Assembly (NCBI RefSeq): GCF_025822765.1
Contig: NZ_JACKUK010000016.1
Span: 188,458 to 252,457, forward strand
Length of the DNA: 64,000 nucleotides
DNA from: Mycobacterium barrassiae
GTDB taxonomy: Bacteria; Actinomycetota; Actinomycetes; Mycobacteriales; Mycobacteriaceae
Direction: 5' to 3'
Positions 2,058 through 15,371 of the stretch are shown piece by piece (positions within the stretch are counted from its first letter, which is position 1; the number at the start of each line of letters is the position of its first letter). The notes beneath the pieces were generated by a model. It was given only the letters and a program-made list of their open reading frames with translations, did not search any database and was not told the DNA's origin. The position numbers were made by a program, and so were the translations under genes.

Positions 2058-2085
2058 GCTCTCCAAAAGCGAGAATTTCGTTCCC
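2058..2085. promoter_or_regulatory. Candidate operator E of the shared GAGAAT/ATTCTC motif family
   Basis: Contains GCTCTC-N7-GAGAAT (2058-2076) followed by ttc-GTTCCC, so GAGAAT is flanked by an N7 and an N3 partner half-site. The same architecture is at 6920-6950 and 9298-9316. It lies in the 77-bp gap between two divergent exported-protein genes. The left half-site has one mismatch to RTTCTC. Confidence 0.45.
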
Positions 2086-2105
2086 GTTCATGTGAAAATG
2101 GCCAG

Positions 2106-2501
2106 GTGCGGTACGTCATCGGCATGCTTGCTGCGTTGCTAACTGTAGGCACAGTGACGGCGGTTCCAGCGGCCGCACAGCCACCGCCTCCGCCGTCCCC
2201 CGAGGAGTGCAACTCTCCCGAGTGCGTGCCGGGCATCGCGCCCCACATCGTGCTTGGCTCGTACTGCAGCAATACGACGTACTACGCGTTCGGCGTCACG
2301 GATTGGGGCCGGTTGGTGTTCTGTGGGTCGCCACGGCGTTATGAACCCCGGTGGTTCCGGTCACCCGAGATGCACGGCATCAAGCTCGAGAACGATCTGT
2401 GCCCCTCGATGGAGGGTGAGGTCGCACAAGCGCCCGACGGACTGTTCCTGACGTGTGTGGCCAAGGACGGCAGGGCGTACTGGGAACAGGGCAACCTGTA
2501 A
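2106..2501 (+). CDS. Small exported protein, unknown function
   Basis: 131 residues from a GTG. Signal peptide in residues 1-24 (cleavage near AAA-QP), then a Pro-rich linker and a compact domain with six Cys (EECNSPECVP, SYCSN, VFCGS, DLCPS, FLTCV), so it is probably disulfide-bonded and extracytoplasmic. No family motif recognised. It is divergent from the exported gene at 1510-2028 and convergent with the P450 gene, with a hairpin in between. Confidence 0.72.
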   Translation: MRYVIGMLAALLTVGTVTAVPAAAQPPPPPSPEECNSPECVPGIAPHIVLGSYCSNTTYYAFGVTDWGRLVFCGSPRRYEPRWFRSPEMHGIKLENDLCPSMEGEVAQAPDGLFLTCVAKDGRAYWEQGNL

Positions 2502-2544
2502 GTCGCCCCGGTCGGGCTTTCGGTCATCGATGCGCAATCGGCCA

Positions 2545-2602
2545 TTGACTCTGCCATGAGGCCGAAAAAGTCGAGCGATTCGCGGCCTGGACGCAGAGTC
2601 AA
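2545..2602. terminator. Long-range hairpin between convergent genes
   Basis: Ten-bp perfect arms TTGACTCTGC (2545-2554) and GCAGAGTCAA (2593-2602) enclose a second GGCC/GGCC pairing at 2560 and 2584. It lies between the stops of the 131-residue exported protein and the P450, where a bidirectional terminator is expected. A weaker GCCC-N5-GGGC-TTT hairpin sits at 2505-2520. Confidence 0.45.
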
Positions 2603-2644
2603 CGAACATGCGGTTCAGCCGGCGGTCTGGCTCCCGCGTAGCCG

Positions 2645-3985
2645 TTATCCGATCGGCGTGAACTCGATGTTGATCTCGGTGAGCCCACGCAGGATGAACG
2701 TCGGCTCGTACTCGTAGCGGCGCGCGTCGATCGGCCCGTGCTTCTCTTCGCTTACCGTGATGTCGGCCATCCGGTCGAGGATCCGCTCGATCGAGACTCG
2801 GCCCTCGACCCTCGCGAGCGGGGCGCCGGGGCAGGAGTGAATGCCGCGGCTGAACGCGATGTGCTCGCGCACGTTCTTGCGCTCGAGTGAGAACTCGTGC
2901 GGGTTCTCGAAGCGCTTGGGGTCGCGGTTGGCGGCTCCGGGGCTGACCATCACCGTGGTACCCGCCGGCACCGGCTTGTCGCCGAGAGTCGTTGTCTTGC
3001 GGGCCATCCGGAATACGCTCTTCACCGGGCTGTCCATGCGCAGACACTCCTCGATGAAGACCGGGATGAGGCTTCGGTCGTCCCTCAGCTGCTGCTGGAT
3101 GTCGGGTCGGTCGCTGAGCACCCGCATGGCCGCGCCGAGCAGCTTGGCGGTGGTCTCCTGACCGGCCGCGAACAGGAACGTCGCCGTGCGCACCACGTCG
3201 ACCACCTCGGGGGTGGAACCGTCCGGGTATTTCGCGGTGGCGATGGAGGTGAGGACATCGTCGCGGGGGTTCTCGCGGCGCTCCTCGATGTACTGCGAGA
3301 ATTTCTCGTCCGCCCATGCCAGTGGGTTGACGGCGATCACCTCATGGTCGAGCCCGCCGATGTTGGTGCCCGGCTGGCCTGCGCCGAAGGACTCACGGAA
3401 CTCGTCGTGATCGGCTTCGGGGACCCCGAGCAGGTCGGCAACGACCAAGAGCGAGAACGGCTTTGCGTAGGCCGCGAGGAACTCGCACTTGCCGTCCTCG
3501 ATGAACTCGTCGATGTGGCGATCGGCCAGCCGCCACATGAAGTCCTCGTTCTCCTTCAGCCGCTTGGGGGTCAACAGTCGGGAGAGGATGGAGCGTGCAT
3601 CGGTGTGCTGCGGGGGATCCATCGTGACCATGTGCTCGAACATGGGGATCTCCGTGCGGTGCTCTTCGAGCTGCGCGCAGATGTCGTCGCCCTCGGGCGT
3701 GAACGGGATCGGTGTGAACGGACCCATCACTGCGACGCATGACGAGTAGTTCTCGCTGTCCTTGTAGACGGTGTTGGCGGCGTCCCAGCCGGTCACCGCA
3801 AGCACGCCGTTGTTGATCGGACAGCACACGGGATCCTTCGCGCGGATGTGGTCGTAATACGGGTGGGGGTCAGGTACCAGCGAGGGATCGGTGAAGTAGT
3901 CGACCGAATCGAAATCAGAGGCCTGTGAATCAGTGGTCTCGGAATCAGTGGTCTCGGAATCAGTGGTCTCGGAATCAGTGGTCAT
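2645..3985 (-). CDS. Cytochrome P450
   Basis: 446 residues from the ATG at 3985; longer upstream readings are out of keeping with the family. It shows the I-helix AAGQETT (about 273-279), the K-helix E-x-x-R in EECLR (about 313-316), and the heme loop FSRGIHSCPG with the thiolate Cys at 385. It is a soluble class I bacterial P450 that would need ferredoxin and reductase from elsewhere; neither is next to it. The N-terminus is odd: the first 18 or so residues are a (T)TDSE repeat from four copies of a 15-bp unit. It is divergent from a TetR regulator 195 bp away. The substrate is not predictable; the neighbourhood of CoA ligases, hydratase and thiolase suggests hydroxylation of a lipid or terpenoid-like compound. 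Confidence 0.95.
   Translation of the reverse strand: MTTDSETTDSETTDSETTDSQASDFDSVDYFTDPSLVPDPHPYYDHIRAKDPVCCPINNGVLAVTGWDAANTVYKDSENYSSCVAVMGPFTPIPFTPEGDDICAQLEEHRTEIPMFEHMVTMDPPQHTDARSILSRLLTPKRLKENEDFMWRLADRHIDEFIEDGKCEFLAAYAKPFSLLVVADLLGVPEADHDEFRESFGAGQPGTNIGGLDHEVIAVNPLAWADEKFSQYIEERRENPRDDVLTSIATAKYPDGSTPEVVDVVRTATFLFAAGQETTAKLLGAAMRVLSDRPDIQQQLRDDRSLIPVFIEECLRMDSPVKSVFRMARKTTTLGDKPVPAGTTVMVSPGAANRDPKRFENPHEFSLERKNVREHIAFSRGIHSCPGAPLARVEGRVSIERILDRMADITVSEEKHGPIDARRYEYEPTFILRGLTEINIEFTPIG
3927..3985. repeat. Four tandem 15-bp repeats inside the P450 N-terminus
   Basis: Three full copies and one partial copy of the unit gaatcagtggtctcg run from 3927 to the start codon. They encode an acidic Ser/Thr/Asp/Glu repeat. 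Because 15 is a multiple of 3, slippage would change length without breaking the frame. Confidence 0.9.
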
Positions 3986-4070
3986 CGTCTTTGAGCCCTC
4001 CAAGGTCGGCACATACCCGCGTCGTGACTGGGACTGATTCGGCCACTGAGCGGGCCGGCTGGCCGAATAT

Positions 4071-4088
4071 GCTGAGCACTTGCTTAGC
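4071..4088. promoter_or_regulatory. Candidate TetR operator between P450 and tetR
   Basis: An 18-bp imperfect palindrome, gctgagcacttgcttagc, with 14 of 18 positions symmetric. It lies about midway between the divergent P450 and TetR starts, the usual place for an autoregulatory TetR operator. Inferred from symmetry and location only. Confidence 0.4.
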
Positions 4089-4180
4089 ATGGCGTTAAGG
4101 TCAGGGTCAAGAACAGGCGGGCAGGTCGCCACTACGATCGGCGTGTCGTAACGAGGAACGTCGGGAAAAGGATGGATGGC

Positions 4181-4798
4181 ATGACCGGGGTGTCTGGGGC
4201 GCCGCGAAGGATCGGGGCGCCGGAGGCGAAGAACCGGGGTGTGCTGCTCGACGCCGCCGAGAAGTTGCTGCTCGAGGAGGGCTACGCCGCGGTCACGTCG
4301 CGCCGGGTCGCCGAGAAAGCGGGTCTCAAACCCCAGCTCGTCCACTACTACTTCCGCACCATGGAAGATCTCTTGATGGCGGTGTTCCGCCGCATGGCCG
4401 AAGCCGGGCTGAGCGTGCTTTCGATGGCGTTGTCGTCGCCGCAGCCGCTGTGGGCGTTGTGGAGGTTCAGCACGCAGCCCGAGGCCACGAGGCTGACGAT
4501 GGAGTTCATGGGCCTCGCGAATCACCGCAAGGCGCTGCGGGCCGAAATCGTCTACTACGCCGAACGTTTCCGGGCCGAGCAGAATGCGGCGATCGCGGCT
4601 GCGCTCGAACGATACGGCGTTGCGTCCGACGAGGTGCCGCCCGTGGTGTGGACGGTGTTCGCTACGAGCGTGTCCCAGGGCCTGGTGATGGAGCGGGCGC
4701 TTGGCATGACCACCGGCCACGCCGAGACGTTCACGTATTGCGAGCAATGGATTCGCCGACTTGAAGGTGATCCGATTCCCGTCGAGCAAACTTCGTGA
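4181..4798 (+). CDS. TetR/AcrR family transcriptional regulator
   Basis: 205 residues from the ATG at 4181, which has AAGGA 8 nt upstream; an in-frame ATG at 4172 lies inside that ribosome site. The N-terminal helix-turn-helix is typical (LLDAAEKLLLEEGYAAVTSRRVAEKAGLK then LVHYYFRTMEDLL). The C-terminal domain, about residues 65-200, is the variable ligand-binding helical bundle. It is divergent from the P450 gene and so is probably its local repressor. Its 3' end is 8 bp from the convergent exported protein gene. Whether it also acts on the palindromes upstream of the catabolic genes is unknown; its own promoter region lacks that motif. Confidence 0.9.
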   Translation: MTGVSGAPRRIGAPEAKNRGVLLDAAEKLLLEEGYAAVTSRRVAEKAGLKPQLVHYYFRTMEDLLMAVFRRMAEAGLSVLSMALSSPQPLWALWRFSTQPEATRLTMEFMGLANHRKALRAEIVYYAERFRAEQNAAIAAALERYGVASDEVPPVVWTVFATSVSQGLVMERALGMTTGHAETFTYCEQWIRRLEGDPIPVEQTS

Positions 4799-4806
4799 AT
4801 CAGCGC

Positions 4807-5274
4807 CTACCAGTTGCGAATTGAGCAGAGGGCGCCCTTTGGCCCCTGGTCGGTGGACACGACGACGCCGTCCACTGCCATCACGCAATGGACGTTGGGG
4901 GTTTTGGCCCCCTGCCCGCTGGTCGCGGTGACCATCGCCCACTCGTCGGGGTTGGCCAGCGCGACGTCGAGGGTCCACTGACTGTCCGGACCGACACTTG
5001 CCTCCGCCTTGGGGCTGAACACGTACGGATTGTGGCTGTAGTCGGCCCAGTTCGGCGGATCGACGTCGCGGTAGTAGATCTGCACGGACGTCGGCTGCTC
5101 GGCGAAGATCGTGTACTTGACGCTGTGCAGTGCGGGAGGCGGCGGCAGGGGAGGCCCCTGTGCGGCAGCCGTCGCACCCGGAATCGCGATGCCGGCGACC
5201 GCCAAGGTGGTCACCGACGCAAGCCGGAGCAGCGCTGCGCGACGAGTGTGGTGCCGAACCTGCGAAAACATCAT
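4807..5274 (-). CDS. Exported protein with MmpS-like C-terminal domain
   Basis: 155 residues starting MMFSQ. A basic N-terminus followed by a hydrophobic core and AAAQG makes a signal peptide of about 38 residues, then a short Pro-rich linker. The mature domain (KYTIFAE to CSIRNW) resembles the small beta-sandwich of MmpS accessory proteins: it begins with a VxYxI strand and ends with two Cys in the NVHCVMAVDG and GALCSI context that probably form a disulfide. No MmpL gene is adjacent. The MmpS relation is my reading of the pattern, not a database result; a general secreted mycobacterial protein is the alternative. Confidence 0.75.
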   Translation of the reverse strand: MMFSQVRHHTRRAALLRLASVTTLAVAGIAIPGATAAAQGPPLPPPPALHSVKYTIFAEQPTSVQIYYRDVDPPNWADYSHNPYVFSPKAEASVGPDSQWTLDVALANPDEWAMVTATSGQGAKTPNVHCVMAVDGVVVSTDQGPKGALCSIRNW

Positions 5275-5326
5275 TTGCGAATTTTAGAACGATGTTTCCT
5301 GACTCGGAGCCGATTGGCCGTCCGCA

Positions 5327-6472
5327 TCACACCGACAGGATCGTTGCCGATGCCGTTCCTGGTGCACCGTACACCTGCGCCAGGCCGACTTTCGGCTCGC
5401 CCGGCACCTGACGCTCGCCCGCCTCGCCTCGCAGTTGGCGTACCAGCTCGTGCACCTGGCGCAGCCCCGACGCGCCGATCGGCTCGCCGTTGGCGATCAG
5501 TCCGCCGTCGGTGTTGATCGGAATGCTGCCGTGGATCTCGGTGGCACCGTCGGCCAGCAGCTTCTCCTGCTCACCGTCGGCGCACAGCCCGGTTTCGGCC
5601 ATGTGGATCACCTCGGCGCCGGCATCGGTGTCCTGCAGCTGCGCGACGTCCACATCATCGGGACCGATTCCGGCGATCTCGTAGGCGGCCTTGGCCGCGT
5701 ACACAGTCGGCGAGGCGTCCTCGTCGAGCGGCGCGGAGGTCGCATGCACCTCATACGCGCCAAAGGTGCGGGTACGAATCTCGCTGGCGCGCACGAACAC
5801 CGGCTTGTCGGTGAACTTGTGCGCGAGGTCGCCGCGGCACATGATGACCGCGGCTGCGCCCTCATCGGGCGCGCAGAACATGTACTGCGTGAGCGGGTAG
5901 TTCAACACGGTGCTGTTGAGGATCTCCTCGACCGAGATCTCCTTGCGGCGGAACGCATTCGGGTTGAGCGCACCGTTGCGGAAGTTCTTGTTGGCCACCT
6001 TCGCGAGCGTCTCCTGCGAGATGCCGTGCTTGTGGATGTAGTGATTGGCCTTCATGCCGAAGAACTTGGTGGTGACGAACTGCCCGTTTTGCGCGTACCA
6101 CTGTGGCAGCGCGAGCTTGGCCGGGTCGTCGGTGAAGGCGCCGCGCGGGTGCTTGTCCAGGCCCACCGCGACACCGATGTCGTACTTGCCCAGCCGGATG
6201 GTGTCGGCGGTCTGCTGGATGGCGCTTGCCGAGGTGGCACAGGCATTGAACACGTTGGTGAAGGTGATTCCCGTCAGCCCGACGAGCCGGGTGACGGAGT
6301 CGGGATTGGACACCTCGTAGCTGCCGCCGAACCCGAACTGGATGTCCTTCCATTCGACGCCGGCGTCGGCCAGCGCCAGCCGGATGGCCTCGGCCCCCAT
6401 CTGCACCGCGGGCTTGTCGAAGCGGCCGAACGGGTGCAGGCCCACACCGATGATGGCAACGTCGTTCGTCAT
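5327..6472 (-). CDS. Ltp/SCP2-type thiolase (lipid-transfer protein, probable acyl-CoA thiolase or retro-aldolase)
   Basis: 381 residues, the usual length of SCP2-thiolase-like Ltp proteins. Visible landmarks are the nucleophile-region Cys78 in FNACATSASA, VGLDKHPRG, the QLQDTDAGAEV segment, and GEPIGASGLRQVHEL near the C-terminus, where thiolases carry their substrate-site Gly-rich loop. Such proteins act on CoA thioesters, and in steroid side-chain degradation they pair with a DUF35 protein as retro-aldolases. The DUF35 gene is directly upstream, 12 bp away, with AGGAG before this ATG, so the two are one transcription unit. I infer a C-C bond cleavage step in the catabolic pathway of this region. 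True thiolase activity is not proven, because the usual His/Cys pair near the C-terminus is not clear. Confidence 0.87.
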   Translation of the reverse strand: MTNDVAIIGVGLHPFGRFDKPAVQMGAEAIRLALADAGVEWKDIQFGFGGSYEVSNPDSVTRLVGLTGITFTNVFNACATSASAIQQTADTIRLGKYDIGVAVGLDKHPRGAFTDDPAKLALPQWYAQNGQFVTTKFFGMKANHYIHKHGISQETLAKVANKNFRNGALNPNAFRRKEISVEEILNSTVLNYPLTQYMFCAPDEGAAAVIMCRGDLAHKFTDKPVFVRASEIRTRTFGAYEVHATSAPLDEDASPTVYAAKAAYEIAGIGPDDVDVAQLQDTDAGAEVIHMAETGLCADGEQEKLLADGATEIHGSIPINTDGGLIANGEPIGASGLRQVHELVRQLRGEAGERQVPGEPKVGLAQVYGAPGTASATILSV

Positions 6473-6484
6473 GGCATGAGCTCC

Positions 6485-6904
6485 TTACACCGGCTGGAAC
6501 GCGAAGGTGACCACCTCGTTGCCGTCGGCATCGGTGGTGAACGGAATCATGGTCAGCTCAACCTCCTGGCCGAACTGCAGTTTGGCGGGATCGTTCTCCG
6601 TGAGCCGGCCCTCCACCCGGATCACGTCTCCGAGTTGCACCAGCCCGACGCCGAACGGGACGAAGTCCTTGCCGGTCGGACCCGCGTACGGCGCGCCGGG
6701 CGGGAAGCCCTGGGTCGTCCAGGCCACGATGGTGCCGCGGCGGGGCAGCAGAACTTCGGACATCTCCGCCCCGCTGCACTTGGGGCAGTGGTCCTGCACG
6801 GGGAACACCGTGGCGCCGCAGGTGCCGCAGGTGCTGCCGATCAGCTGCGGATTCTCATCCGGCCAGGTGGAAATCTCTGGTGCGAGCGCTTTCTGGGTGG
6901 ACAC
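6485..6904 (-). CDS. DUF35 zinc-ribbon / OB-fold protein, partner of the Ltp thiolase
   Basis: 139 residues from the GTG at 6904; longer readings run into the operator region. The zinc ribbon uses Cys26, Cys29, Cys40 and Cys43 (CGTC...CPKC), followed by the OB-fold half (RRGTIVAWTTQG, VGLVQLGD, RVEGRL). DUF35 proteins form complexes with Ltp-type thiolases, MaoC hydratases or acyl-CoA dehydrogenases and can bind acyl-CoA. It is first in a two-gene unit with the thiolase. A palindromic motif (6920-6950) lies just upstream, so this unit is probably a regulated member of the local catabolic set. Confidence 0.9.
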   Translation of the reverse strand: MSTQKALAPEISTWPDENPQLIGSTCGTCGATVFPVQDHCPKCSGAEMSEVLLPRRGTIVAWTTQGFPPGAPYAGPTGKDFVPFGVGLVQLGDVIRVEGRLTENDPAKLQFGQEVELTMIPFTTDADGNEVVTFAFQPV

Positions 6905-6919
6905 GGGTTGACCATAATC

Positions 6920-6950
6920 GGAAATGGCGTTCTCGTCTAGAGAGAACAGC
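6920..6950. promoter_or_regulatory. Candidate operator A of the shared motif, upstream of DUF35-thiolase
   Basis: GTTCTC (6929-6934), seven bases with a central CTAG, then GAGAAC (6942-6947): a perfect 6-bp inverted repeat. It is preceded by GGAAAT-ggc, which forms the weaker N3 palindrome with GTTCTC, and followed by agc. The layout matches site B at 9298-9316 almost base for base (RTTCTC, CTAG core, GAGAAY, agc). Confidence 0.6.
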
Positions 6951-6956
6951 CTGGCG

Positions 6957-7463
6957 TCAGCGCTCCCGCTCACCCACGATGACCCGCGCGATATCGGCCT
7001 CGATGGCCGCCACCCGGTCGAGGTCCAGACCCCACGGCTGATCGACGCCGACACGTCGATCGAGATCCCACAGCACACACTGCTCGCCCGGCTGCGCGAC
7101 CACCGACCACGCGACCACCGTCCTGCGCAGCTGCTCGTCCATCGAATCCGTGACCACGCCCGCGGGTGCGCCGCCCTCGGGGTGGTGGTGGAGGAAGCGG
7201 CCGTATGCCTTTTCGCAGAACGCGGCGTAGCGCGCGGTGCACAGGATCAGTCCGTGCCATGCCTCGTCCACGGCGTGCGACGGCATGCCGATCAACTGGT
7301 TGTCGCGCAGCGCAGCCCCACAACACCTCAGCCACTGCCGCAGACCGGTGTCGATCAGTTCGCGAGGTTCCCACGGACACGTCTTGAACACGGCCGCCGG
7401 AAGCTCGAGTTCCGACACCGCGTCCAGTACCCGGTCGATCGGGTCACCGCGCCAGCGTCGCAC
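6957..7463 (-). CDS. Conserved protein resembling glycine-rich-domain (DUF1399-like) proteins
   Basis: 168 residues from a GTG placed 7 nt after a TAATGT hexamer, so probably leaderless. The recognisable segment, about residues 60-95, is AVDEAWHGLILCT, ARYAAFCEKAYG and RFLHHHPEG. This D-x-x-W-H ... Y-x-x-F-C ... H-H-P pattern recalls the DUF1399 domain of plant glycine-rich-domain proteins and bacterial relatives. Its clustered His, Cys and Asp could bind a metal, though that is inference. No signal peptide or membrane segment. It shares a divergent promoter region with the SnoaL-like gene and ends 52 bp before the DUF35 start. Function unknown. Confidence 0.75.
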   Translation of the reverse strand: MRRWRGDPIDRVLDAVSELELPAAVFKTCPWEPRELIDTGLRQWLRCCGAALRDNQLIGMPSHAVDEAWHGLILCTARYAAFCEKAYGRFLHHHPEGGAPAGVVTDSMDEQLRRTVVAWSVVAQPGEQCVLWDLDRRVGVDQPWGLDLDRVAAIEADIARVIVGERER

Positions 7464-7475
7464 GTCATCACATTA
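7464..7475 (-). promoter_or_regulatory. -10 element for a leaderless transcript of the DUF1399-like gene
   Basis: On the minus strand TAATGT (7475-7470) is followed by six bases and then the GTG start at 7463, the spacing expected when transcription starts at the initiation codon. No ribosome-binding site is present. Confidence 0.45.
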
Positions 7476-7540
7476 GGCGCGATAACCGATCACGAGGCGA
7501 TGATGCGGCCCACGGCCTCGGCCTAGGACCGGTTTCATAG

Positions 7541-7568
7541 TTGACTGGAGTGGCCAATGGTTTAGCCT
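7541..7568 (+). promoter_or_regulatory. SigA-like promoter for the SnoaL-VOC pair
   Basis: TTGACT (7541-7546), a 16-base spacer and TAGCCT (7563-7568). The GTG at 7575 lies 7 nt after the -10 box, which predicts a leaderless transcript. Confidence 0.5.
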
Positions 7569-7574
7569 GCCGGT

Positions 7575-8000
7575 GTGGACGCCGATAAAGCGCAGATCTC
7601 GGAGGTTTTGATCCGGTACGCCACCGGAATCGACTTCAAGGACTGGGCGCTCCTGCGCACCTGCTGGACCGACGACGTCGACTGTGATTACGGCGAGGTA
7701 GGACGGTATTCGGGCATCGACGCCATCTCCGGGTTGATGGAACAGCTTCACGCGTCGATGGGGCCCACCTATCACCGGCTGTCCAACTTCACGATCACCG
7801 TCGACGGCGATCGCGCAACGGCCAAGTCCTACGTCTACGCCCATCTGCAGGCGGTGCGCGACGATCCGGCCAGTTGGGTTGAGGCCCTTGGCCATTACGA
7901 CGACGAACTCGTCCGCACATCCGACGGATGGCGCATCGGCAAGCGCACCACCCATATCGCGCGGGTGCAGTCCGGGGTCACGCCGGCGCCGCAGCGATGA
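7575..8000 (+). CDS. SnoaL-like / NTF2-fold protein
   Basis: 141 residues, the length of single-domain SnoaL_4 proteins. The N-terminus (ISEVLIRYATGIDFKDWALLRTCWTDD) is the standard helical start of that fold, followed by the curved sheet with TYHRLSNFTITVDGDRATAKSYV. Family members are small dehydratases, isomerases or hydroxylating subunits acting on ring substrates. The GTG start is probably leaderless (see promoter 7541-7568). Its TGA overlaps the ATG of the VOC gene (ATGA), so the two are translationally coupled and probably act on the same intermediate. The exact reaction is unknown. Confidence 0.87.
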   Translation: MDADKAQISEVLIRYATGIDFKDWALLRTCWTDDVDCDYGEVGRYSGIDAISGLMEQLHASMGPTYHRLSNFTITVDGDRATAKSYVYAHLQAVRDDPASWVEALGHYDDELVRTSDGWRIGKRTTHIARVQSGVTPAPQR

Positions 8001-8548
8001 CGGAGGACCTCGCACCCGACCGCCTCGCGAGGACGCTGCCGGGCGCGATCCGCCAGATCGGATACATCGTCGACGACATCGACGCCGCGCTCGCTGCGTG
8101 GGTGGACTTGGGCGTCGGTCCGTGGTTCGTCATGCGCGGCATTCCGATCCGTGCGACCTACCGCGGGCAGCGTTGTGCGACCACGATCTCGATGGCGCTG
8201 GCCAATAGCGGAGAGATGCAGCTCGAGCTGATCCAGCAGGAGGACGACACTCCGAGCATCTACACCGAGTTTCTTCAGGATCACGGTCCCGGGTGCCACC
8301 AATTGGCTTACTGGACCGAGGATTTCGAGGCCACCATGGCATCGGTGCGGGATGCCGGCTGGCCGATCGTGTGGCTCGGTGACGAGGACGTCGGAACTCG
8401 GTTCGCCTACGTCGAGCCGCCTAACAGCCCGGCTCGGGTCATCGAGATCATGGAAAACAACGAAATCACCGCGGGCATGGGCAAATTCGTCCGCGATGCC
8501 GCTGCCGACTGGGATGGCAGCGATCCCATTCGCGTCCTTGGCGGCTGA
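7997..8548 (+). CDS. VOC-superfamily (glyoxalase/epimerase-like) protein
   Basis: 183 residues from the ATG that overlaps the previous stop. It has two beta-alpha-beta-beta-beta modules: IRQIGYIVDDIDAALAAWVDLGVGPW near the start and GCHQLAYWTEDFEATMASVRDAGW in the middle. Likely metal ligands are the His in GCHQLAY and the Glu residues in LELIQ and VIEIME. Related proteins include methylmalonyl-CoA epimerase and glyoxalase-type isomerases. It is co-transcribed with the SnoaL-like protein and ends 5 bp before the convergent enoyl-CoA hydratase gene. Probably an isomerase or lyase in the same catabolic route. Confidence 0.88.
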   Translation: MTEDLAPDRLARTLPGAIRQIGYIVDDIDAALAAWVDLGVGPWFVMRGIPIRATYRGQRCATTISMALANSGEMQLELIQQEDDTPSIYTEFLQDHGPGCHQLAYWTEDFEATMASVRDAGWPIVWLGDEDVGTRFAYVEPPNSPARVIEIMENNEITAGMGKFVRDAAADWDGSDPIRVLGG

Positions 8549-8553
8549 GCGGC

Positions 8554-9270
8554 CTACTTGCCGCGTTTCATCACCTTGTCGGCGGCGGCCCAGTGTTCGT
8601 CGGATACCCACAGGCGGGCAAACGCCGCGACGGCCTCGGTGGTCGTCGCACCCTTCATGACCCGCTTGATCTCGCCTGCAGGGCGGCTGGCCAAAGCGCG
8701 GGCGAGGTCGCGCCAGCCGTCGTCGAAGGACGCGCGCGGTAGGACCCGTTGCACCAGGCCGATGCGTTCGGCCTCCGCGGCGTCGATGATCGTGCCCGTG
8801 CCTGCGAGCAGCAGGGCCTTGCTGTAGCCGACCAGGGCAACCAACCTTTCGGCTCCGCCCCACGCCGGCATTATCTCCAGCGCCACCTGGTTGAAGCCGA
8901 TCTTGATGTCGTCGGCGGCCACCCGGACGTCGGCCGACACCGCGAACTCCGCGCCGCCGCCCAGCGCGTGCCCATTGAGCGCGGCGATCGTCGGCCCGGG
9001 AAAGCCTGCAATCCGATCGCAGATGGTCCGCATCCGGAACGCCATCCCCGACGCCTCGAGTTCGGTGCGCAGTGCGCTGAGTTCCTTGAGATCGCCACCC
9101 GACACGAAGGCGCGGTCGCCGGCCCCCGTGATGACGAGCGCGCGCGCACCATCGGCGCCGTCGAGCGCCTTCTCCAGCTGGTCCATGGCCTCCAGGGAGA
9201 TGGCGTTACGCGCATGCGGTCGATCGACGGTGATGACCGCCAGTCCGTCGTTCACCTCCAGATCAACCAT
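8554..9270 (-). CDS. Enoyl-CoA hydratase/isomerase (crotonase family)
   Basis: 238 residues from the ATG at 9270, which has GGAGA upstream; the longer open frame is an artefact. Crotonase signatures are RPHARNAISLEAMDQL, the first oxyanion-hole segment FVSGGDLKEL, and the second, NGHALGGGAEFAVSADVRVA. It is somewhat short for the family (about 255), with a trimmed C-terminus. It would hydrate a 2-enoyl-CoA or shift a double bond. It is divergent from the acyl-CoA synthetase, and operator B lies between the two starts, so both are probably regulated together. Confidence 0.93.
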   Translation of the reverse strand: MVDLEVNDGLAVITVDRPHARNAISLEAMDQLEKALDGADGARALVITGAGDRAFVSGGDLKELSALRTELEASGMAFRMRTICDRIAGFPGPTIAALNGHALGGGAEFAVSADVRVAADDIKIGFNQVALEIMPAWGGAERLVALVGYSKALLLAGTGTIIDAAEAERIGLVQRVLPRASFDDGWRDLARALASRPAGEIKRVMKGATTTEAVAAFARLWVSDEHWAAADKVMKRGK

Positions 9271-9297
9271 CACTCGTTCTCCGTCTCCGGTATTGGC

Positions 9298-9316
9298 ATT
9301 CTCCCTAGCGGAGAAT
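9298..9316. promoter_or_regulatory. Candidate operator B in the divergent hydratase/synthetase promoter
   Basis: ATTCTC (9298-9303), seven bases containing CTAG, and GAGAAT (9311-9316): a perfect 6-bp inverted repeat in the 81-bp gap between divergent genes. It is flanked by ggc on the left and agc on the right, exactly as at site A. Confidence 0.6.
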
Positions 9317-9351
9317 AGCATCGGGCGCGACGCGGAGGTGTAGCCAAGTTC

Positions 9352-10881
9352 ATGCGAAACATCCCTGATGAGCTGACCAAAAGGTATCTGGCGGAAGGGT
9401 GGTGGACAGAGGAGACGCTCGGCGATCTGGTGGCCGACGGGCTGGCAGCAAATCCGACGACGGGCTTCTACGTGCACTCCGCGGTGCGGCCCTACTCCGG
9501 CACCTTCGGTGACGTCGAAATCGAGGCACGAAGGCTGGCGGCGGGGCTGTGCTCGCGCGGCGTCGGCGCGGGTGACGTCGTCGCCATCCAACTGCCCAAC
9601 TGGATGGAGGCCGCCGCGGCGTTCTGGGCCTCCACATTCCTGGGCGCGGTCGTCGTACCGATCGTGCACTTCTATGGCCGCAAGGAACTCGCCCACATCA
9701 TGGCGACGGCCCGACCCAAGGTCTTCATCACCACCGCGGAGTTCGGCCGGATGACATTCCAGGCCGACCTGTGTGCCGACGTGCCGATCGTCGCCCTGGT
9801 CGGCGAGACCTATGACGACCTCCTCGCCGAAGAGCCGATGGCCGGAACCGTCGCCGCCGACCCTGCGAGCCCCGCGCTCATCGCCTTCACCTCGGGCACC
9901 ACGAGCAATCCCAAAGGAGTCATCCACAGCCATCAGACGCTGGCCTTCGAGACGCGGCAGCTGCTCGAGAACTATCCGCCGGACCGGGGCAGGCAGTTGA
10001 CCGCCACTCCGGTGGGACATTTCATCGGAATGCTCGGCGCCTTCCTCATCCCGGTGCTCGAAGGCGCACCCATCGATCTGTGCGACGTGTGGGACCCGGG
10101 CCGGGTCCTTCAGCTGATCGAACGCGACGGATTGTCCATCGGCGGCGGCCCGCCGTACTTCGTGACCAGCGTGCTGGACCACCCGGACTGCACGCCGGAA
10201 CACATCCGACACTTCACCACCGTGGGACTGGGCGGCTCGACCGTGCCGGCCGCGGTGACCCGTCGGCTGGCCGATCTCGGAATGTTCGTGTTCCGCTCCT
10301 ACGGCAGCACCGAGCATCCGTCGATCACCGGATCGCGTCGCACCGCACCTGAGGACAAGCGGTTGTTCACCGACGGCGACGTCCGGCCCGGGGTCGAGAT
10401 CCGGCTGGGGCCCGACGGCGAGATCTTCAGCCGTGGACCCGATCTGTGCCTCGGGTACACCGACGACGCGCTGACCGAGCAGGCGTTCGACGACGACGGT
10501 TGGTACCGCACGGGTGACGTTGGGGTGTTGGACGACGACGGCTATCTCACCATCACCGACCGCAAGGCCGACGTGATCATCCGCGGCGGCGAGAACATCA
10601 GCGCCCTCGAGGTCGAGGAGGTGCTGCTCGGGATGCCCGCCGTCGTGGAAGCCGTGGTGGTCGCGGTACCCGACAACCGCTTGGGTGAGCGTGCGGCAGC
10701 GGTGCTGCGGCTGCGCGACGGCAGCCAGATGCCGACACTGGACGAGGTGCGTGACCACTTCAAGGCCTCAGGTGTCGCGGTCCAGAAGTGGCCGGAAGAG
10801 CTGCATCGGGTCGAGGACTTTCCGCGCACCGCGAGCGGCAAGGTGCAGAAGTTTCGGGTCCGCCAAAACCTGCGGGGATGA
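9352..10881 (+). CDS. Acyl-CoA synthetase (ANL superfamily, FadD-type)
   Basis: 509 residues. It has the ANL core motifs: P-loop TSGTTSNPKG (about residue 183), FRSYGSTEHPSITGS for acyl and AMP binding, the hinge-region YRTGDVGVLDDDGYLTITDR, and the C-terminal GGENISALEVEEVL with the catalytic Lys in TASGKVQKF. It activates a carboxylic acid with ATP and CoA. The ATG lies 6 nt after TAGCCA and 13 nt from GGAGG, so a leaderless start is possible. It probably primes a substrate of the same pathway as the divergent hydratase. Chain or ring specificity cannot be read. Confidence 0.93.
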   Translation: MRNIPDELTKRYLAEGWWTEETLGDLVADGLAANPTTGFYVHSAVRPYSGTFGDVEIEARRLAAGLCSRGVGAGDVVAIQLPNWMEAAAAFWASTFLGAVVVPIVHFYGRKELAHIMATARPKVFITTAEFGRMTFQADLCADVPIVALVGETYDDLLAEEPMAGTVAADPASPALIAFTSGTTSNPKGVIHSHQTLAFETRQLLENYPPDRGRQLTATPVGHFIGMLGAFLIPVLEGAPIDLCDVWDPGRVLQLIERDGLSIGGGPPYFVTSVLDHPDCTPEHIRHFTTVGLGGSTVPAAVTRRLADLGMFVFRSYGSTEHPSITGSRRTAPEDKRLFTDGDVRPGVEIRLGPDGEIFSRGPDLCLGYTDDALTEQAFDDDGWYRTGDVGVLDDDGYLTITDRKADVIIRGGENISALEVEEVLLGMPAVVEAVVVAVPDNRLGERAAAVLRLRDGSQMPTLDEVRDHFKASGVAVQKWPEELHRVEDFPRTASGKVQKFRVRQNLRG

Positions 10882-10947
10882 ATGGCTGGCCAGAGTGTGA
10901 GAACGTCATTACCACTCCGGCCCAAAACCTTGTTACGGTGGCATCAG

Positions 10948-10962
10948 GAGAATAGGATTCTC
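10948..10962. promoter_or_regulatory. Candidate operator C upstream of the amidohydrolase unit
   Basis: GAGAATAGGATTCTC is a perfect 15-bp palindrome (6-bp arms, 3-bp spacer). A degraded third half-site GATAAG follows after seven bases. It lies 22 bp before the ATG at 10985, ahead of the AAGGAG ribosome site. Confidence 0.65.
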
Positions 10963-10984
10963 GTAAGAGGATAAGGAGTCTTTC

Positions 10985-12175
10985 ATGGGTCAGCTTTCGC
11001 ACCGGGTCGACATTCCGTTTCCGCTGTTCGACGCCGACAACCACCTGTATGAGCCGCCAGAGGCGATGACGAAGTACCTGCCCAAGGAGTACAAGGACGT
11101 CGTCCAGTACGTCGAGGTCAACGGGCGCACCAAGATCGCGCTGAAGGGCCAGATCAGCAACTACATTCCGAATCCCACCTTCTCGGTGGTCGCCAAGCCT
11201 GGCGCCTGGGAGGAGTACTTCAAGTTCGGCAACCCGGAGGGCAAGAGCAAGCGCGAGCTGTTCGGTGAGCCGATGCGCGCCATTCCGGCCTTCTTCGAGC
11301 CCGAGCCGCGCATCGAGAAGATGAACGAGCTGGGTATCGACCGCTCGCTGATGTTCCCGACGCTCGCCAGCCTGATCGAGGAGCGGCTGTCCGACGACCC
11401 GGTCGCCATCCACGTGCTCATCCACTCGCTGAACCAGTGGCTGGACGAGGTTTGGGGCTTCAACTACCAGAACCGCATCTTCACCACCCCCGTGATCACG
11501 CTGCCCATCGTCGAGAAGGCCATCGAGGAACTGGAGTGGGCGGTCAAGCGTGGTGCGCGCGCCATCCTCATCCGGCCGGCTCCGGTGCCCGGGTTCCGCG
11601 GACCACGGTCGTTCGCGCTGCCCGAGTTCGACCCCTTCTGGGAGCGCGTCGTGCACCACGACGTGTTCGTCGGCATGCACTCCTCCGACAGTGGTTACTC
11701 GCGCTACACCTCCGAGTGGGACGGCCAGGCGCAGGAGATGCTGCCGTTCCAGACCAATGCCATGTCGATCCTCAACGAGTGGCGCCCGATCCAGGATGCG
11801 GTGGCATCGTGGGTGATTCACGGTGCGCTGTTCCGGCACCCGAAGCTGAAGGTCGGCATCGTCGAGGCCGGGTCGAAGTGGATGTTCCCGCTGCTGGACT
11901 CGATGGCCGAGGTCTACAAGAAGGCGCCCGAGGCCTTCCTGGGCAACCCGATCGAGGAGATCAAGAACCGCATCTATGTCAGCCCGTTCTACGAGGAGGG
12001 CATCGACGACCTGATCAACCTGATCGGTGTGGACCAGGTGCTGTACGGCTCCGATTGGCCGCACCCTGAGGGGCTGGCCGAGCCGACGCACTACGTGACC
12101 GCGCTCGAGCACCTCTCGATGGAGGACCAGGCGAAGATCATGGGCGGCAACCTCGGTCGCCTCGTCACCGTGTGA
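10985..12175 (+). CDS. Amidohydrolase-family (amidohydrolase_2) metal-dependent hydrolase or decarboxylase
   Basis: 396 residues, ATG preceded by AAGGAG. The TIM-barrel amidohydrolase_2 signature is present: DADNHLYEP at the N-terminus replaces the usual D-x-H-x-H metal site, HHDVFVGMHSSD supplies mid-protein His residues, and YGSDWPHPEG near residue 360 carries the conserved Asp. Relatives include 2-amino-3-carboxymuconate semialdehyde decarboxylase and many hydrolases of ring-derived acids. Its stop overlaps the GTG of the following acyl-CoA synthetase (GTGA), so the two are coupled: a hydrolase or decarboxylase product is perhaps then ligated to CoA. Substrate unknown. Confidence 0.92.
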   Translation: MGQLSHRVDIPFPLFDADNHLYEPPEAMTKYLPKEYKDVVQYVEVNGRTKIALKGQISNYIPNPTFSVVAKPGAWEEYFKFGNPEGKSKRELFGEPMRAIPAFFEPEPRIEKMNELGIDRSLMFPTLASLIEERLSDDPVAIHVLIHSLNQWLDEVWGFNYQNRIFTTPVITLPIVEKAIEELEWAVKRGARAILIRPAPVPGFRGPRSFALPEFDPFWERVVHHDVFVGMHSSDSGYSRYTSEWDGQAQEMLPFQTNAMSILNEWRPIQDAVASWVIHGALFRHPKLKVGIVEAGSKWMFPLLDSMAEVYKKAPEAFLGNPIEEIKNRIYVSPFYEEGIDDLINLIGVDQVLYGSDWPHPEGLAEPTHYVTALEHLSMEDQAKIMGGNLGRLVTV

Positions 12176-13635
12176 CAGGTAGCCAATCTTGGGAGACCAT
12201 CCCCGAGATGGTCTTGAGCGCGGCGGACCGCTTCGGCGATGCGGAAGCGGTCGTCGACGGTCCGCTGCGCCTCACCTTCGCCGAGGTTGTCGATCGGATT
12301 CGCTGTGCGGCAGGCGCTTTCGCCCAATTCGGTATCGCCAAGGGCGATCGGGTAGCCGTCTGGGCGCCGAATTCCGCGGAATGGATCATCGCTGCCTTCG
12401 GCATCATGACGGCCGGTGCGGTGCTGGTTCCGGTGAACACGCGGTTCAAGGCGGACGAAGCCGGCGACATCATCGTCCGCAGCGGAGCCAAGGCCGTGAT
12501 GATCCAAAAGGGTTTCCTGGATCAGGACTATGTCGCGCCTGAAGGCGTACCTGTGATCGATCTGAAGTCCGACTTCCTGTCCGGCGGTTCGCCGTTCGAG
12601 GCCGGCGGTCTGCGGGGCACGGACATCTCCGACATCATCTTCACCTCGGGCACAACGGGTCGGCCCAAGGGCGCCAAGATGAATCACCTCCAGACGCTGC
12701 GCGCCTACGAGGAATGGGCCACCCTCGCGGATCTCCGTGAGGGTGACCGCTATCTGATGATCAACCCGTACTTCCACACGTTCGGGTTGAAGGCGGGCCT
12801 GGTCGCGTCGTTCCTGCGTGGTGCCACGATGGTGCCGCTGGCGGTGTTCGACGTCGATCGAGTGGTGGAACTCGTTGAGGCCGAACGCATCACGATGTTG
12901 CCCGGGCCGCCGACGCTGTATCACTCGCTGTTGACGATCAGCGACAAATCCAAGCTGGCCTCCCTGCGCGCCGCGGTGACCGGTGCGGCGGACATCCCCG
13001 TCGAACTGATCCGGCGAATTCGTCACGACCTTCCGTTCCAGTCGCTGATGACGGGCTACGGTCTCACCGAGGCGGGCAACGTCACGCTGTCTCGGCCCGG
13101 TGACTCAGCCGAGGACGTCGCATGCACGGCGGGCCTGCCGTGCGAAGGCGTCGAGGTCCGCATCGCAGATGACGGCGAGGTGTTGGTGCGCGGCTACAAC
13201 GTCATGCAGGGATACCTCGACGACCCCGTCGCGACCGCCGAGTCCATCGATCCGGACGGCTGGCTGCACACCGGCGATCTGGGCACGCTCGACGACGCGG
13301 GACGACTGCGGATCGTCGGGCGCAAGAAGGACATGTTCATCGTCGGCGGCTTCAACGCCTACCCCGCCGAGATCGAAGGCTTCCTCCTGGAGCATCCGGC
13401 TGTCGCGCAGGCCGCGGTCATCGGGGTGCCCGACGAGCGGATGGGGCAGGTGGGCAAAGCGTTCATCGTGACGAAGGAGGATGGGCCGGCGATCAGCGCG
13501 GCCGACCTCATCGAGTGGAGCCGAGGGCGAATGGCGGGATTCAAGGCGCCGCGGTATGTAGAGTTCCTCGACAAGCTGCCGTTGAACGCCACCGGCAAGG
13601 TGATGAAGGACGACTTGCTCAAACGACAGGGCTGA
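12172..13635 (+). CDS. Acyl-CoA synthetase, FadD3-like
   Basis: 487 residues from a GTG overlapping the amidohydrolase stop. ANL motifs: IIFTSGTTGRPKGAKMNH, MTGYGLTEAGNVTLS, WLHTGDLGTLDDAGRLRIVGR, GGFNAYPAEIEGFL and the C-terminal catalytic Lys in NATGKVMKDDL. Its overall style (INPYFHTFGLKAG, LPGPPTLYHSLL) is close to FadD3, which activates the steroid CD-ring propionate. A polycyclic or branched carboxylate is therefore a fair guess, but there is no cholesterol-gene context here. A 7-bp-arm hairpin follows the gene. Confidence 0.93.
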   Translation: MTGSQSWETIPEMVLSAADRFGDAEAVVDGPLRLTFAEVVDRIRCAAGAFAQFGIAKGDRVAVWAPNSAEWIIAAFGIMTAGAVLVPVNTRFKADEAGDIIVRSGAKAVMIQKGFLDQDYVAPEGVPVIDLKSDFLSGGSPFEAGGLRGTDISDIIFTSGTTGRPKGAKMNHLQTLRAYEEWATLADLREGDRYLMINPYFHTFGLKAGLVASFLRGATMVPLAVFDVDRVVELVEAERITMLPGPPTLYHSLLTISDKSKLASLRAAVTGAADIPVELIRRIRHDLPFQSLMTGYGLTEAGNVTLSRPGDSAEDVACTAGLPCEGVEVRIADDGEVLVRGYNVMQGYLDDPVATAESIDPDGWLHTGDLGTLDDAGRLRIVGRKKDMFIVGGFNAYPAEIEGFLLEHPAVAQAAVIGVPDERMGQVGKAFIVTKEDGPAISAADLIEWSRGRMAGFKAPRYVEFLDKLPLNATGKVMKDDLLKRQG

Positions 13636-13650
13636 GCGTGCTCACAGCGC

Positions 13651-13696
13651 GTAAATAGCATTTCCGCAGGAAGGGCGGCTTGATCCGGGCCTGCGG
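13651..13696. repeat. Hairpin after fadD; degenerate member of a palindromic repeat family
   Basis: Arms CCGCAGG (13664-13670) and CCTGCGG (13690-13696). The left flank, with aaatagcattt, resembles the arms of the larger palindromes at 36208-36264 and 52725-52781. It may also serve as the terminator of the amidohydrolase-fadD unit. Confidence 0.4.
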
Positions 13697-13730
13697 CGGG
13701 AGGGTATCGTCGCGGCGATACGCAAAAATG

Positions 13731-13745
13731 GAAAATGGCATTCTC
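13731..13745. promoter_or_regulatory. Candidate operator D upstream of the mas pair
   Basis: GAAAAT-ggc-ATTCTC, an N3 palindrome with one mismatch in six pairs to GAGAAT-N3-ATTCTC. It lies 34 bp before the GTG of the first mas gene. No N7 partner half-site follows. Confidence 0.5.
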
Positions 13746-13779
13746 ATGAGTAGTGGGCATAACGGACAAGGAGGTCGCC

Positions 13780-14694
13780 GTGCCGTCATTCAGGCGCCGC
13801 GCGTCAGCGACCGACACTGATCACGTCGAAGAACCGGCCGGCACGCTGGACGGCGCCGTGGACGAACGCGTCGCCGATGACGAAGTCGACGCGCTGACGT
13901 TGGCTGAGCAGGCCGAGGCCGAGGCGGCCGAGGCCGAAGCGCTCGCCGCCGCAGCGCGCGCGAGGGCGCGGGCGATCCGGCTACGTCGGGAAGCGGAGGA
14001 GGCCAAGAAGGCCAAGGAGGAGGCCGAGGCGGAGGCTGACTCGAAGGCCGAGGCCGACACCGTCGTCGCAGACCCGGACGATGCGACCGAAGCCGGCACC
14101 GATACGACTGAAGTCGAAGACAAGAAAAAGGACGACGTCGAAGAGAACGACGTCGAAGAGACAGAGGAAGACACGGAAGTCGCCGCGCCGAAGCGACGTC
14201 GGTGGAGTCTCGTCGTCAAGATCGTGGCGATGACGCTGGCGATTCTCGGCACCGTCGCACTCCTGGCCGCCAGCGGATACATGATCGTCCAGCACCGCAA
14301 AGAAACCGACCAGCAGAGGCTCAACGCGGAGTACCTCGCCGCGGGCCGGCAAAGTGTTGTGACGCTGATGTCGCTGGACTTCAACAAGGCCCAGGAAGAC
14401 GTGGATCGCATCATCGCGAACTCCACCGGACAGTTCAAAACCGACTTCGAGAATCAGGCCGAGGATTTCGTCAAGGTCGCCCAGGAGTCGAAGGTCGTCA
14501 CCGACGTCACCGTCACGGCGGCGGCCGTCGAGTCGATGACCCCGGACTCCGCCGTCGTGCTGGTGGCCGCAACCTCGCGCGTCACCAATGCCGCAGGCGC
14601 CAAACAGGAACCGCGCGCCTGGCGGCTGTCGGTCAACCTCGAGCGGGTCGACGACGGCCAGGTGAAGATGTCGAAAGTTGAGTTCGTACCGTGA
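13780..14694 (+). CDS. Mce-associated membrane protein (Mas/Mam type)
   Basis: 304 residues from the GTG at 13780, chosen because AAGGAGG ends 5 nt upstream; an in-frame GTG at 13753 is less likely. Residues 30-135 are a charged Ala/Glu/Lys/Asp coiled-coil-like cytoplasmic region. One membrane helix follows (LVVKIVAMTLAILGTVALLA) and then a roughly 130-residue external domain (YLAAGRQSVVTLMSLDF, FVKVAQESKVVTDVTVTAAAV). That is the layout of proteins downstream of mce operons that stabilise or accompany the Mce transporter. It overlaps the next mas gene by 4 bp (GTGA). Placed 12 kb from the mceF end, it may serve that transporter. Confidence 0.85.
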   Translation: MPSFRRRASATDTDHVEEPAGTLDGAVDERVADDEVDALTLAEQAEAEAAEAEALAAAARARARAIRLRREAEEAKKAKEEAEAEADSKAEADTVVADPDDATEAGTDTTEVEDKKKDDVEENDVEETEEDTEVAAPKRRRWSLVVKIVAMTLAILGTVALLAASGYMIVQHRKETDQQRLNAEYLAAGRQSVVTLMSLDFNKAQEDVDRIIANSTGQFKTDFENQAEDFVKVAQESKVVTDVTVTAAAVESMTPDSAVVLVAATSRVTNAAGAKQEPRAWRLSVNLERVDDGQVKMSKVEFVP

Positions 14695-15371
14695 GCACCG
14701 ACGAGAAGACGGCGAAGACAGCCGCGCCGGAAGACGAGTCCACGCTCGACGACAGCAGCGAAGCCGTCGAGATCACTGAGTCCGGCGAAATCACCGAGGA
14801 CTCAAAGGCGGACGACTCCGAGAAGACCGACAAGAAGGACAAGCCCGCCAGCCGCAAGATCGGAGACCGGCGCCTGCTCCGCGCGGCGCGTCGCAACCTC
14901 GGCGTCATCATCGTGGCGGCGGCACTCGTCATCTCGGCGGGACTCGCGACGGGTCTGTACTTCTTGCAGTACAAGCCCGACCAGGAGACCAATGCCGCTG
15001 CGGGCAACGTCGCACTGGAGGCAGCGAAGAACGGGACCGTCGCGCTGCTGTCGTACTCGCCGGACACGCTCGACCAGGACTTCGCCAACGCCAAGTCGAA
15101 ACTGACCGGTGACTTCCTTTCGTATTACACGCAATTCACCGAGCAGATCGTCACCCCGGCGGCCAAGGAGAAGCAGGTCAAGACCGTCGCCGTCGTCGTC
15201 CGGGCGGGAGTGATCGAGATACACCAGGACTCCGCAGTGGTGCTGGTGTTCATCAACCAGACGACCACCAGCAAGGAGAACCCGGATGGGGCGTTCGCCG
15301 CGAGCAGCGTCAAGGTCGGCTTGAAGAAGGTCGACGGCCGCTGGCTGATCTCCGCCTTCGACCCCGTATAG
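14691..15371 (+). CDS. Mce-associated membrane protein, second of the pair
   Basis: 226 residues, start overlapping the previous stop. Same plan as its neighbour: an acidic and lysine-rich N-terminal 60 residues, one membrane helix (NLGVIIVAAALVISAGLATGLYFL), then the Mas domain (KNGTVALLSYSPDTLDQDFANAKSKLTGDF, VKTVAVVVRAGVIEIHQDSAVVLVFINQ). The two probably form a heteromeric membrane component, as mas pairs do after mce operons. The IspD-like gene starts 14 bp downstream on the same strand. Confidence 0.85.
   Translation: MSTDEKTAKTAAPEDESTLDDSSEAVEITESGEITEDSKADDSEKTDKKDKPASRKIGDRRLLRAARRNLGVIIVAAALVISAGLATGLYFLQYKPDQETNAAAGNVALEAAKNGTVALLSYSPDTLDQDFANAKSKLTGDFLSYYTQFTEQIVTPAAKEKQVKTVAVVVRAGVIEIHQDSAVVLVFINQTTTSKENPDGAFAASSVKVGLKKVDGRWLISAFDPV

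Follow-up and report, generated by a model that had tools for sequence, protein, structure and literature searches.

Cholesterol catabolism in mycobacteria is governed by the KstR and KstR2 regulons, each under an autoregulated repressor of the TetR family, with the operators TNNAACNNGTTNNA for KstR and AGCAAGNNCTTGCT for KstR2. The role of the Mce systems that do not serve cholesterol is a standing question. Another TetR repressor, QacR, loads two dimers on one operator. In this study, we analyzed a 64-kb stretch of contig NZ_JACKUK010000016.1 (C16) of Mycobacterium barrassiae, called the window, within its genome of 5,900,227 bases in 49 contigs and alongside related genomes. The window contains five palindromic sites, A to E, which appear to be operators of one TetR-family repressor encoded on the same contig upstream of the window, a reading whose probability we put at about 0.83. 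This regulon resembles those of KstR and KstR2 in having an autoregulated TetR repressor and many operators scattered across a large lipid-catabolism region, and the KstR and KstR2 regions likewise contain an mce operon, CoA ligases, acyl-CoA dehydrogenases, DUF35-thiolases and P450s. The operator differs from those of KstR and KstR2, its consensus GAGAAYNNNRTTCTC being without the AAC-N2-GTT core of the KstR motif, and unlike in the KstR and KstR2 systems it can possibly be paired, two operators standing 22 bp apart. A search of the literature by title and start of the abstract, which covered few subscription papers, retrieved no description of such a regulon, and none of five written forms of the motif was found in the text of the papers searched. 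The short predicted Rv0081 sites GAGAATTT and GAGAATTC (PMC4757040) are unrelated to the regulon.

Two arrangements of the half-site were distinguished, the N3 form GAGAAY-N3-RTTCTC (strict form GAGAAT-N3-ATTCTC) and the N7 form RTTCTC-N7-GAGAAY. A sequence-only reading of the window had described sites A to E as one family of promoter operators, and all five are present where it placed them. One exact N3 and two exact N7 copies lie in the window, while 60 dinucleotide (Markov) simulations of it gave on average 0.017 and 0.000 copies, respectively, and none of the 60 had three or more exact sites. The claim that other intergenic regions lack the motif agrees with our scan, which detected no additional copy at ≤1 mismatch in window positions 13746-64000. 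Genome-wide (5.9 Mb), the N3 form has nine exact copies, all on C16 between 55,999 and 199,419, and its reversed control has none; the strict form has seven. The core TTCTC-N7-GAGAA occurs eight times versus twice in the control, and the full N7 form, outer R and Y included, is exact at sites B and C only. Scanning C16:1-312457 for both forms at ≤1 mismatch yielded 23 sites (14 N3, 9 N7). Three of them (14846, 77610 and 296190) are clearly intragenic and were dropped. About 91% of this stretch is coding according to the crude gene caller that we used; site B was flagged as coding because the caller took a long start for the DUF35 gene. The remaining sites form 14 promoter regions spanning about 146 kb of C16, five of which are A to E, so the window holds the end of a longer series of operators. 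Equal density in coding DNA, proposed earlier as the observation to look for against an operator family, was thus not seen. Chance palindromes or an effect of promoter composition would fit the fact that the flanks are partly made of promoter hexamers, but this origin is refuted by the nine copies against none in the reversed control, their confinement to one contig stretch, the far lower numbers in simulations and the conservation in relatives described below, and we regard its probability as negligible.

Conservation at orthologous promoters, the other check that had been suggested, was found as well. Among 22 loci (the window, L053 and L084-L103, counted by eye with A and E scored at ≤1 mismatch), sites C and D were kept in 22/22, B in 21/22, E in 20/22 and A in 15/21, the window included. 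Site B has the exact N7 form in all 21 loci that keep it, and the one locus without it, L103, has neither a DUF35 nor a thiolase match. Site E is missing in L085 and L101; site A is not at the same intergenic region in L092, L095, L097 and L100-L102, and L084 does not cover it. In 30/30 loci around the CoA ligase that starts beside site C, own locus included, site C follows the pattern TTGGCATTCTC-N7-GAGAATA[ACG]CAT and site D is an exact N3 site with TANNAT inside; a search at E≤1e-100 matched the ligase itself in 56 of the 118 genus genomes. Two genomes that we guess to be slow growers (G022 and G085) carry sites at ≤1 mismatch before a P450-like gene, a CMD/amidohydrolase pair and a dehydrogenase/repressor pair (L192, L194), and in G085 they also occur at two other pairs, amidohydrolase/dehydrogenase and SDR/aldehyde dehydrogenase (L193).

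The N3 site at C16:103337 lies between the leftward gene of the candidate repressor (102555-103214) and a rightward acyl-CoA dehydrogenase gene. An exact GAGAAT-N3-ATTCTC was present 113-134 bp upstream of the repressor open reading frame in 80/80 named loci, which are the best 80 of 365 related loci and hence the closest relatives, not a random draw; such a concentration at one regulator gene had also been named in advance as support. The central triplet of the operator in these 80 loci is ACT in 64, AGT in 13 and AAT in 3. A genus set, which probably overlaps the named set in species, had the exact operator about 122-131 bp upstream of the repressor in 30/30 loci, own included. The operator is also written GAGAATAGTATTCTC and GAGAATNNNATTCTC. 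The candidate protein has a TetR_N domain (PF00440, 31.2 bits, cut-off 24), matches 29 PDB sequences at E≤0.01, most of them named transcriptional regulators or repressors, and is invariant at residues 7-84 across 13 aligned sequences, own included. Its NCBIfam matches at E≤1e-5 were ScbR (42.7 bits, curated cut-off 150), BetI (26.6 bits, cut-off 201.3) and FasR (26.3 bits, cut-off 330), and we therefore rejected membership in these families. PDB chains of KstR were matched weakly (E 0.008-0.01, residues ~26-129), which does not identify the candidate as a KstR orthologue: it would work like a KstR-type catabolic repressor, is not KstR, and would have an unusually large and widespread regulon. 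A search for the repressor on named plasmids gave no match at E≤1e-20.

Presence of the repressor largely coincides with presence of the motif. Among the 118 genus genomes, 93 have both, 21 neither, two the repressor only and two the motif only; three of the repressor-negative genomes were assigned by elimination and not by name. The repressor is thus present in 95 of these genomes, with a best match of 76-99% identity. Within 151 genomes of the family it occurs in 33, distributed over 8 of 31 genera. Outside the genus, 23 repressor-positive genomes have a mean of 6.6 motifs versus 1.1 in 118 negative ones (Mann-Whitney p ~1e-12, without correction for phylogeny). The same holds inside individual genera; in g23, for example, positive genomes have 13, 3, 10, 9 and 7 motifs and negative genomes 2, 0, 2 and 0. 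An exact site precedes the repressor by 129 bp in G136 and G161, which belong to another genus, and by 84 bp in G250.

Several observations speak against this regulator assignment. A TetR encoded in the window and an IclR-family protein encoded at C16:70040-70687 co-occur with the motif in the genus almost as well (92/118 and 91/118 genomes). Block inheritance of the supercluster makes co-occurrence within the genus insufficient as proof of the regulator. Four genomes keep the repressor without an exact strict operator nearby: the one-base variant GAGAATAGCGTTCTC is found in G056, just an N7-like site in G026 and a site with two mismatches in G088, and G063 has nothing. Conversely, one motif is present without the repressor in G044 and in G070, and certain repressor-negative genomes outside the genus carry 3-5 motifs. 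A complete additional copy of the repressor, with 80-82% identity to the query, is present in six genomes, and G059 contains two fragments; all three second-copy loci read (L188, L190 and L191) were without an N3 site at ≤1 mismatch or an exact N7 site. The second copy is perhaps a sub-regulator with a shifted operator. These second copies (L188 7377-8021, L190 6832-7467 and L191 7273-7908) adjoin genes for an acyl-CoA mutase, a thiolase and a DUF35 protein. A further reservation is that the assignment draws on comparisons between genomes. Such comparisons, together with the few genomes in which the repressor persists without an exact operator, are compatible with some other regulator binding the sites and the upstream TetR being merely one of its targets. 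We consider this improbable in view of the operator at the candidate's own promoter in all of the best 80 of 365 loci and the tracking of motif and repressor in other genera.

The sequence-only reading had put forward the TetR in the window as the candidate regulator. Its nearness to the sites and its co-occurrence with the motif in the genus favor this proposal, but its promoter, already reported to lack the motif, has no GAGAAT-type site at ≤2 mismatches within 260 bp upstream in 21/21 relatives, and the protein is less conserved than the upstream candidate (best match per genome 57-95% versus 76-99% identity). The divergent promoter between this TetR and a P450 gene instead holds a perfect palindrome, TGCTGAGCACTTGCTTAGCA (also written TGCTGAGCAYYTGCTTAGCA and TGCTGAGCA), which is exact in 20 of 21 relatives, has one mismatch in the remaining one and occurs at 0 mismatches only once in the genome. 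This palindrome is the probable local operator of the window TetR, outside the regulon. Because the promoter has this distinct, conserved operator of its own, we rejected the window TetR as the regulator, leaving that proposal only a slight chance. In G056, the orthologue of the window TetR and the regulon repressor are adjacent and divergent (L187 9687-11279), which suggests that both TetRs serve one pathway.

The IclR-family protein, which has HTH_IclR and IclR_C domains, would be the regulator if the exact site at 70870, 182 bp from its start and between it and a divergent operon for a hydrolase, a monooxygenase and a LigB dioxygenase, were its own operator; an exact site is similarly placed in G020, G081 and G065, and the protein's occurrence in the genus is given above. 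However, no close form was found in 141 genomes outside the genus, where seven have IclRs of just 42-48% identity and only two of these seven are among the 23 repressor-positive genomes. In addition, no exact site adjoins the IclR gene in G034, G085, G089 and G100, for which the site lists are complete. These absences disfavor the IclR protein, which is more likely a target or neighbour, and we give it even less credence as the regulator than the window TetR. The operator at its own promoter, the tracking outside the genus and the case against both the window TetR and the IclR protein are the reasons for choosing the upstream TetR.

The N3 and N7 forms are best read as one extended operator, half-N3-half-N7-half-N3-half, that would hold two dimers 22 bp apart, because the most frequent position of a further half-site was 7 bp beyond N3 sites and 3 bp beyond N7 sites. 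When half-sites with at least 4 of 6 matches were counted, the 97 exact N3 sites left after thinning had one at a gap of 7 bp in 55% of cases, against 0-36% for the 16 other gaps, and the 19 exact N7 sites left after thinning had one at a gap of 3 bp in 84%, against 0-42% for the 14 other gaps. These spacings fit a pair of dimers two helical turns (22 bp) apart. The presence of more than two half-sites per operator is reminiscent of QacR and consistent with two dimers, with the pairing here taken from half-site spacing alone. Some counts tell against the pairing. With all 231 unthinned N3 sites, gap 13 (56%) comes close to gap 7 (60%), and at ≥5 matches gap 5 exceeds gap 7 in N3 flanks (21% versus 17%). 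In N7 flanks at ≥5 matches, gaps 10 and 3 are level in the thinned set (21% each), and gap 10 leads in the 64 unthinned sites (20% versus 8%). Promoter hexamers add to the flank matches, and the side peaks (gaps 13 and 5 at N3, gap 10 at N7) may be promoter elements. Apart from these side peaks, the reciprocal spacing disfavors the idea that the N7 form is a separate operator for another protein.

Repression most likely works by promoter occlusion at sites C and D, since C lies between the predicted -35 and -10 elements and D on the predicted -10. The outer halves at site C overlap the -35 (TTGGCA) and -10 (TAGCAT). At site D, TAGGAT is 17 bp from TTGTTA, and relatives, read by eye, have TTG 17 or 18 bp before the -10. 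A CTAG core, earlier said to be common to sites A and B, is in fact found in B and C and not in A. Among relatives it is mostly retained at B, in the form GTCYAG and possibly coinciding with a -35, and is not retained at C; we rejected it as an operator component at C because the 7-bp spacer there varies among relatives.

The genes beside the sites are listed in the table.

Table. Sites, promoters, regulators and neighbouring genes; coordinates without a prefix refer to the window, and those with the prefix C16 to the contig.
Feature	Coordinates	Strand	Description
Site A	2058..2085		Three half-sites, GCTCTC-N7-GAGAAT-N3-GTTCCC; between two divergent exported-protein genes
Site B	6920..6947		GGAAAT-N3-GTTCTC-N7-GAGAAC; inner palindrome GTTCTC-N7-GAGAAC at 6929-6947, outer half GGAAAT at 6920; upstream of leftward DUF35-thiolase genes
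Site C	9298-9316		Palindrome ATTCTC-N7-GAGAAT; between hydratase and CoA ligase genes
Site D	10948-10962	+	GAGAAT-AGG-ATTCTC, GAGAATAGGATTCTC; 22 bp upstream of amidohydrolase ATG
Site E	13731..13745		GAAAAT-GGC-ATTCTC, GAAAATGGCATTCTC; upstream of Mce-associated (mas) pair
Promoter regions with sites	C16:55986/55999, 61732/61745, 70870, 102527, 103337, 111200/111344, 148101, 163498/163622, 176907/177059		Together with sites A-E
Site C promoter	9291..9321		-35 TTGGCA 9293-9298, -10 TAGCAT 9316-9321, 17-bp spacer; predicted from consensus
Site D promoter	10930..10962	+	-35 TTGTTA 10930-10935, -10 TAGGAT 10953-10958 inside operator; predicted
Candidate TetR repressor	C16:102555-103214	-	About 85 kb upstream of window, outside it
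Window TetR	4172..4798	+	Divergent from P450 2645-3985
Palindrome of window TetR	4070..4089		20 bp, perfect; between P450 and window TetR
Last Mce-type gene	17..1333	+	Pfam Mce4_CUP1; mce run starts upstream of window
Thiolase	5327..6472	-	Pfam Thiolase_N, Thiolase_C_1; downstream of site B
DUF35 (ChsH2-type OB/zinc ribbon)	6485..6915	-	Pfam OB_ChsH2_C, zf-ChsH2; first gene after site B; start 6915 predicted
Enoyl-CoA hydratase/isomerase	8554..9270	-	Pfam ECH_1; leftward of site C
AMP-binding acyl-CoA ligase	9352..10881	+	Pfam AMP-binding; rightward of site C
Amidohydrolase (Amidohydro_2)	10985..12175	+	Pfam; first gene after site D
Second AMP-binding CoA ligase	12172..13635	+	Pfam; in one unit with the amidohydrolase
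Two proteins after site E	13753..15371	+	Called mas pair by position and by the sequence-only reading's label
CoA-ligase-like	C16:56079		NCBIfam matches, best below cut-offs
SDR	C16:60943		
MeaB GTPase	C16:61803		NCBIfam above cut-off
IclR with divergent hydrolase, FAD monooxygenase, LigB dioxygenase	C16:70040-74351		
Acyl-CoA thioesterase	C16:101678		
Acyl-CoA dehydrogenase	C16:103414		
CMD-type protein	C16:110639		
Amidohydrolase	C16:111439		
Amidohydrolase	C16:162306		
Acyl-CoA dehydrogenase	C16:163682		
SDR	C16:176163		
Aldehyde dehydrogenase	C16:177123		

The aldehyde dehydrogenase gene at 177123, preceded by the two operators at C16:176907 and 177059, is the first gene of a same-strand run that continues with a CoA-transferase-like gene (178619) and then the yrbE/mce genes up to window position 1333. 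We infer that this run is one transcript. Neither of the two proteins after site E has a Pfam match. A Rieske-like protein (109288) and one P450-like protein (173615) have NCBIfam matches below the cut-offs, and the labels P450 for 148144 and yrbE come from reading the sequence, not from a family search. A two-subunit, B12-dependent acyl-CoA mutase is encoded at C16:51553-53555 (L045 11553-13555). Its large subunit has an acid_CoA_mut_N match, with 2-hydroxyisobutyryl-CoA mutase and then methylmalonyl-CoA mutase as nearest PDB entries, and the mutase carries DLPTQCGYDSD at the position of DLATHRGYDSD in human methylmalonyl-CoA mutase and of DMPTLMGYDSD in 2-hydroxyisobutyryl-CoA mutase. No operator at ≤1 mismatch precedes the mutase itself; one (C16:61745) precedes the MeaB-like GTPase. 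Elsewhere in the window, a short tandem repeat (3910-3990, TTDSETTDSE in the protein) is located at the start of the P450 gene, and two overlapping convergent genes (15386-16087 and 16050-16790) both match IspD (85.4 and 148 bits), of which the former may be a diverged paralogue.

We propose that dimers of the upstream TetR cover the -10 at site D and, at site C, the stretch separating -35 from -10, and would thereby block RNA polymerase. An acyl-CoA or another pathway intermediate might release the repressor, acyl-CoA being a guess from KstR-like systems. Release would switch on the mce importer, the site-E pair, P450s, Rieske-like oxygenases, CoA ligases, acyl-CoA dehydrogenases, hydratases, DUF35-thiolases, CoA-transferase-like proteins and a MeaB-like mutase chaperone, which jointly would take up and degrade a hydrophobic compound. 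The gene content does not settle the substrate. On balance, we lean towards a broader view in which one previously undescribed TetR is the KstR-like master switch of a catabolic supercluster of about 150 kb for another hydrophobic compound, equipped with an mce importer of its own and flanked by a B12-dependent acyl-CoA mutase branch. It would act via paired operators with dimers 22 bp apart on one DNA face, in about four in five sampled mycobacterial species (95/118) and in seven other genera of the family.

The proposed regulon brings many genes of unassigned substrate, an orphan mce importer among them, together in a single programme under a candidate regulator. Its 15-bp operator is a testable element and provides a marker by which the pathway can be traced among mycobacteria, and work on the regulator or its inducer would bear on the role of the importer and the pathway.

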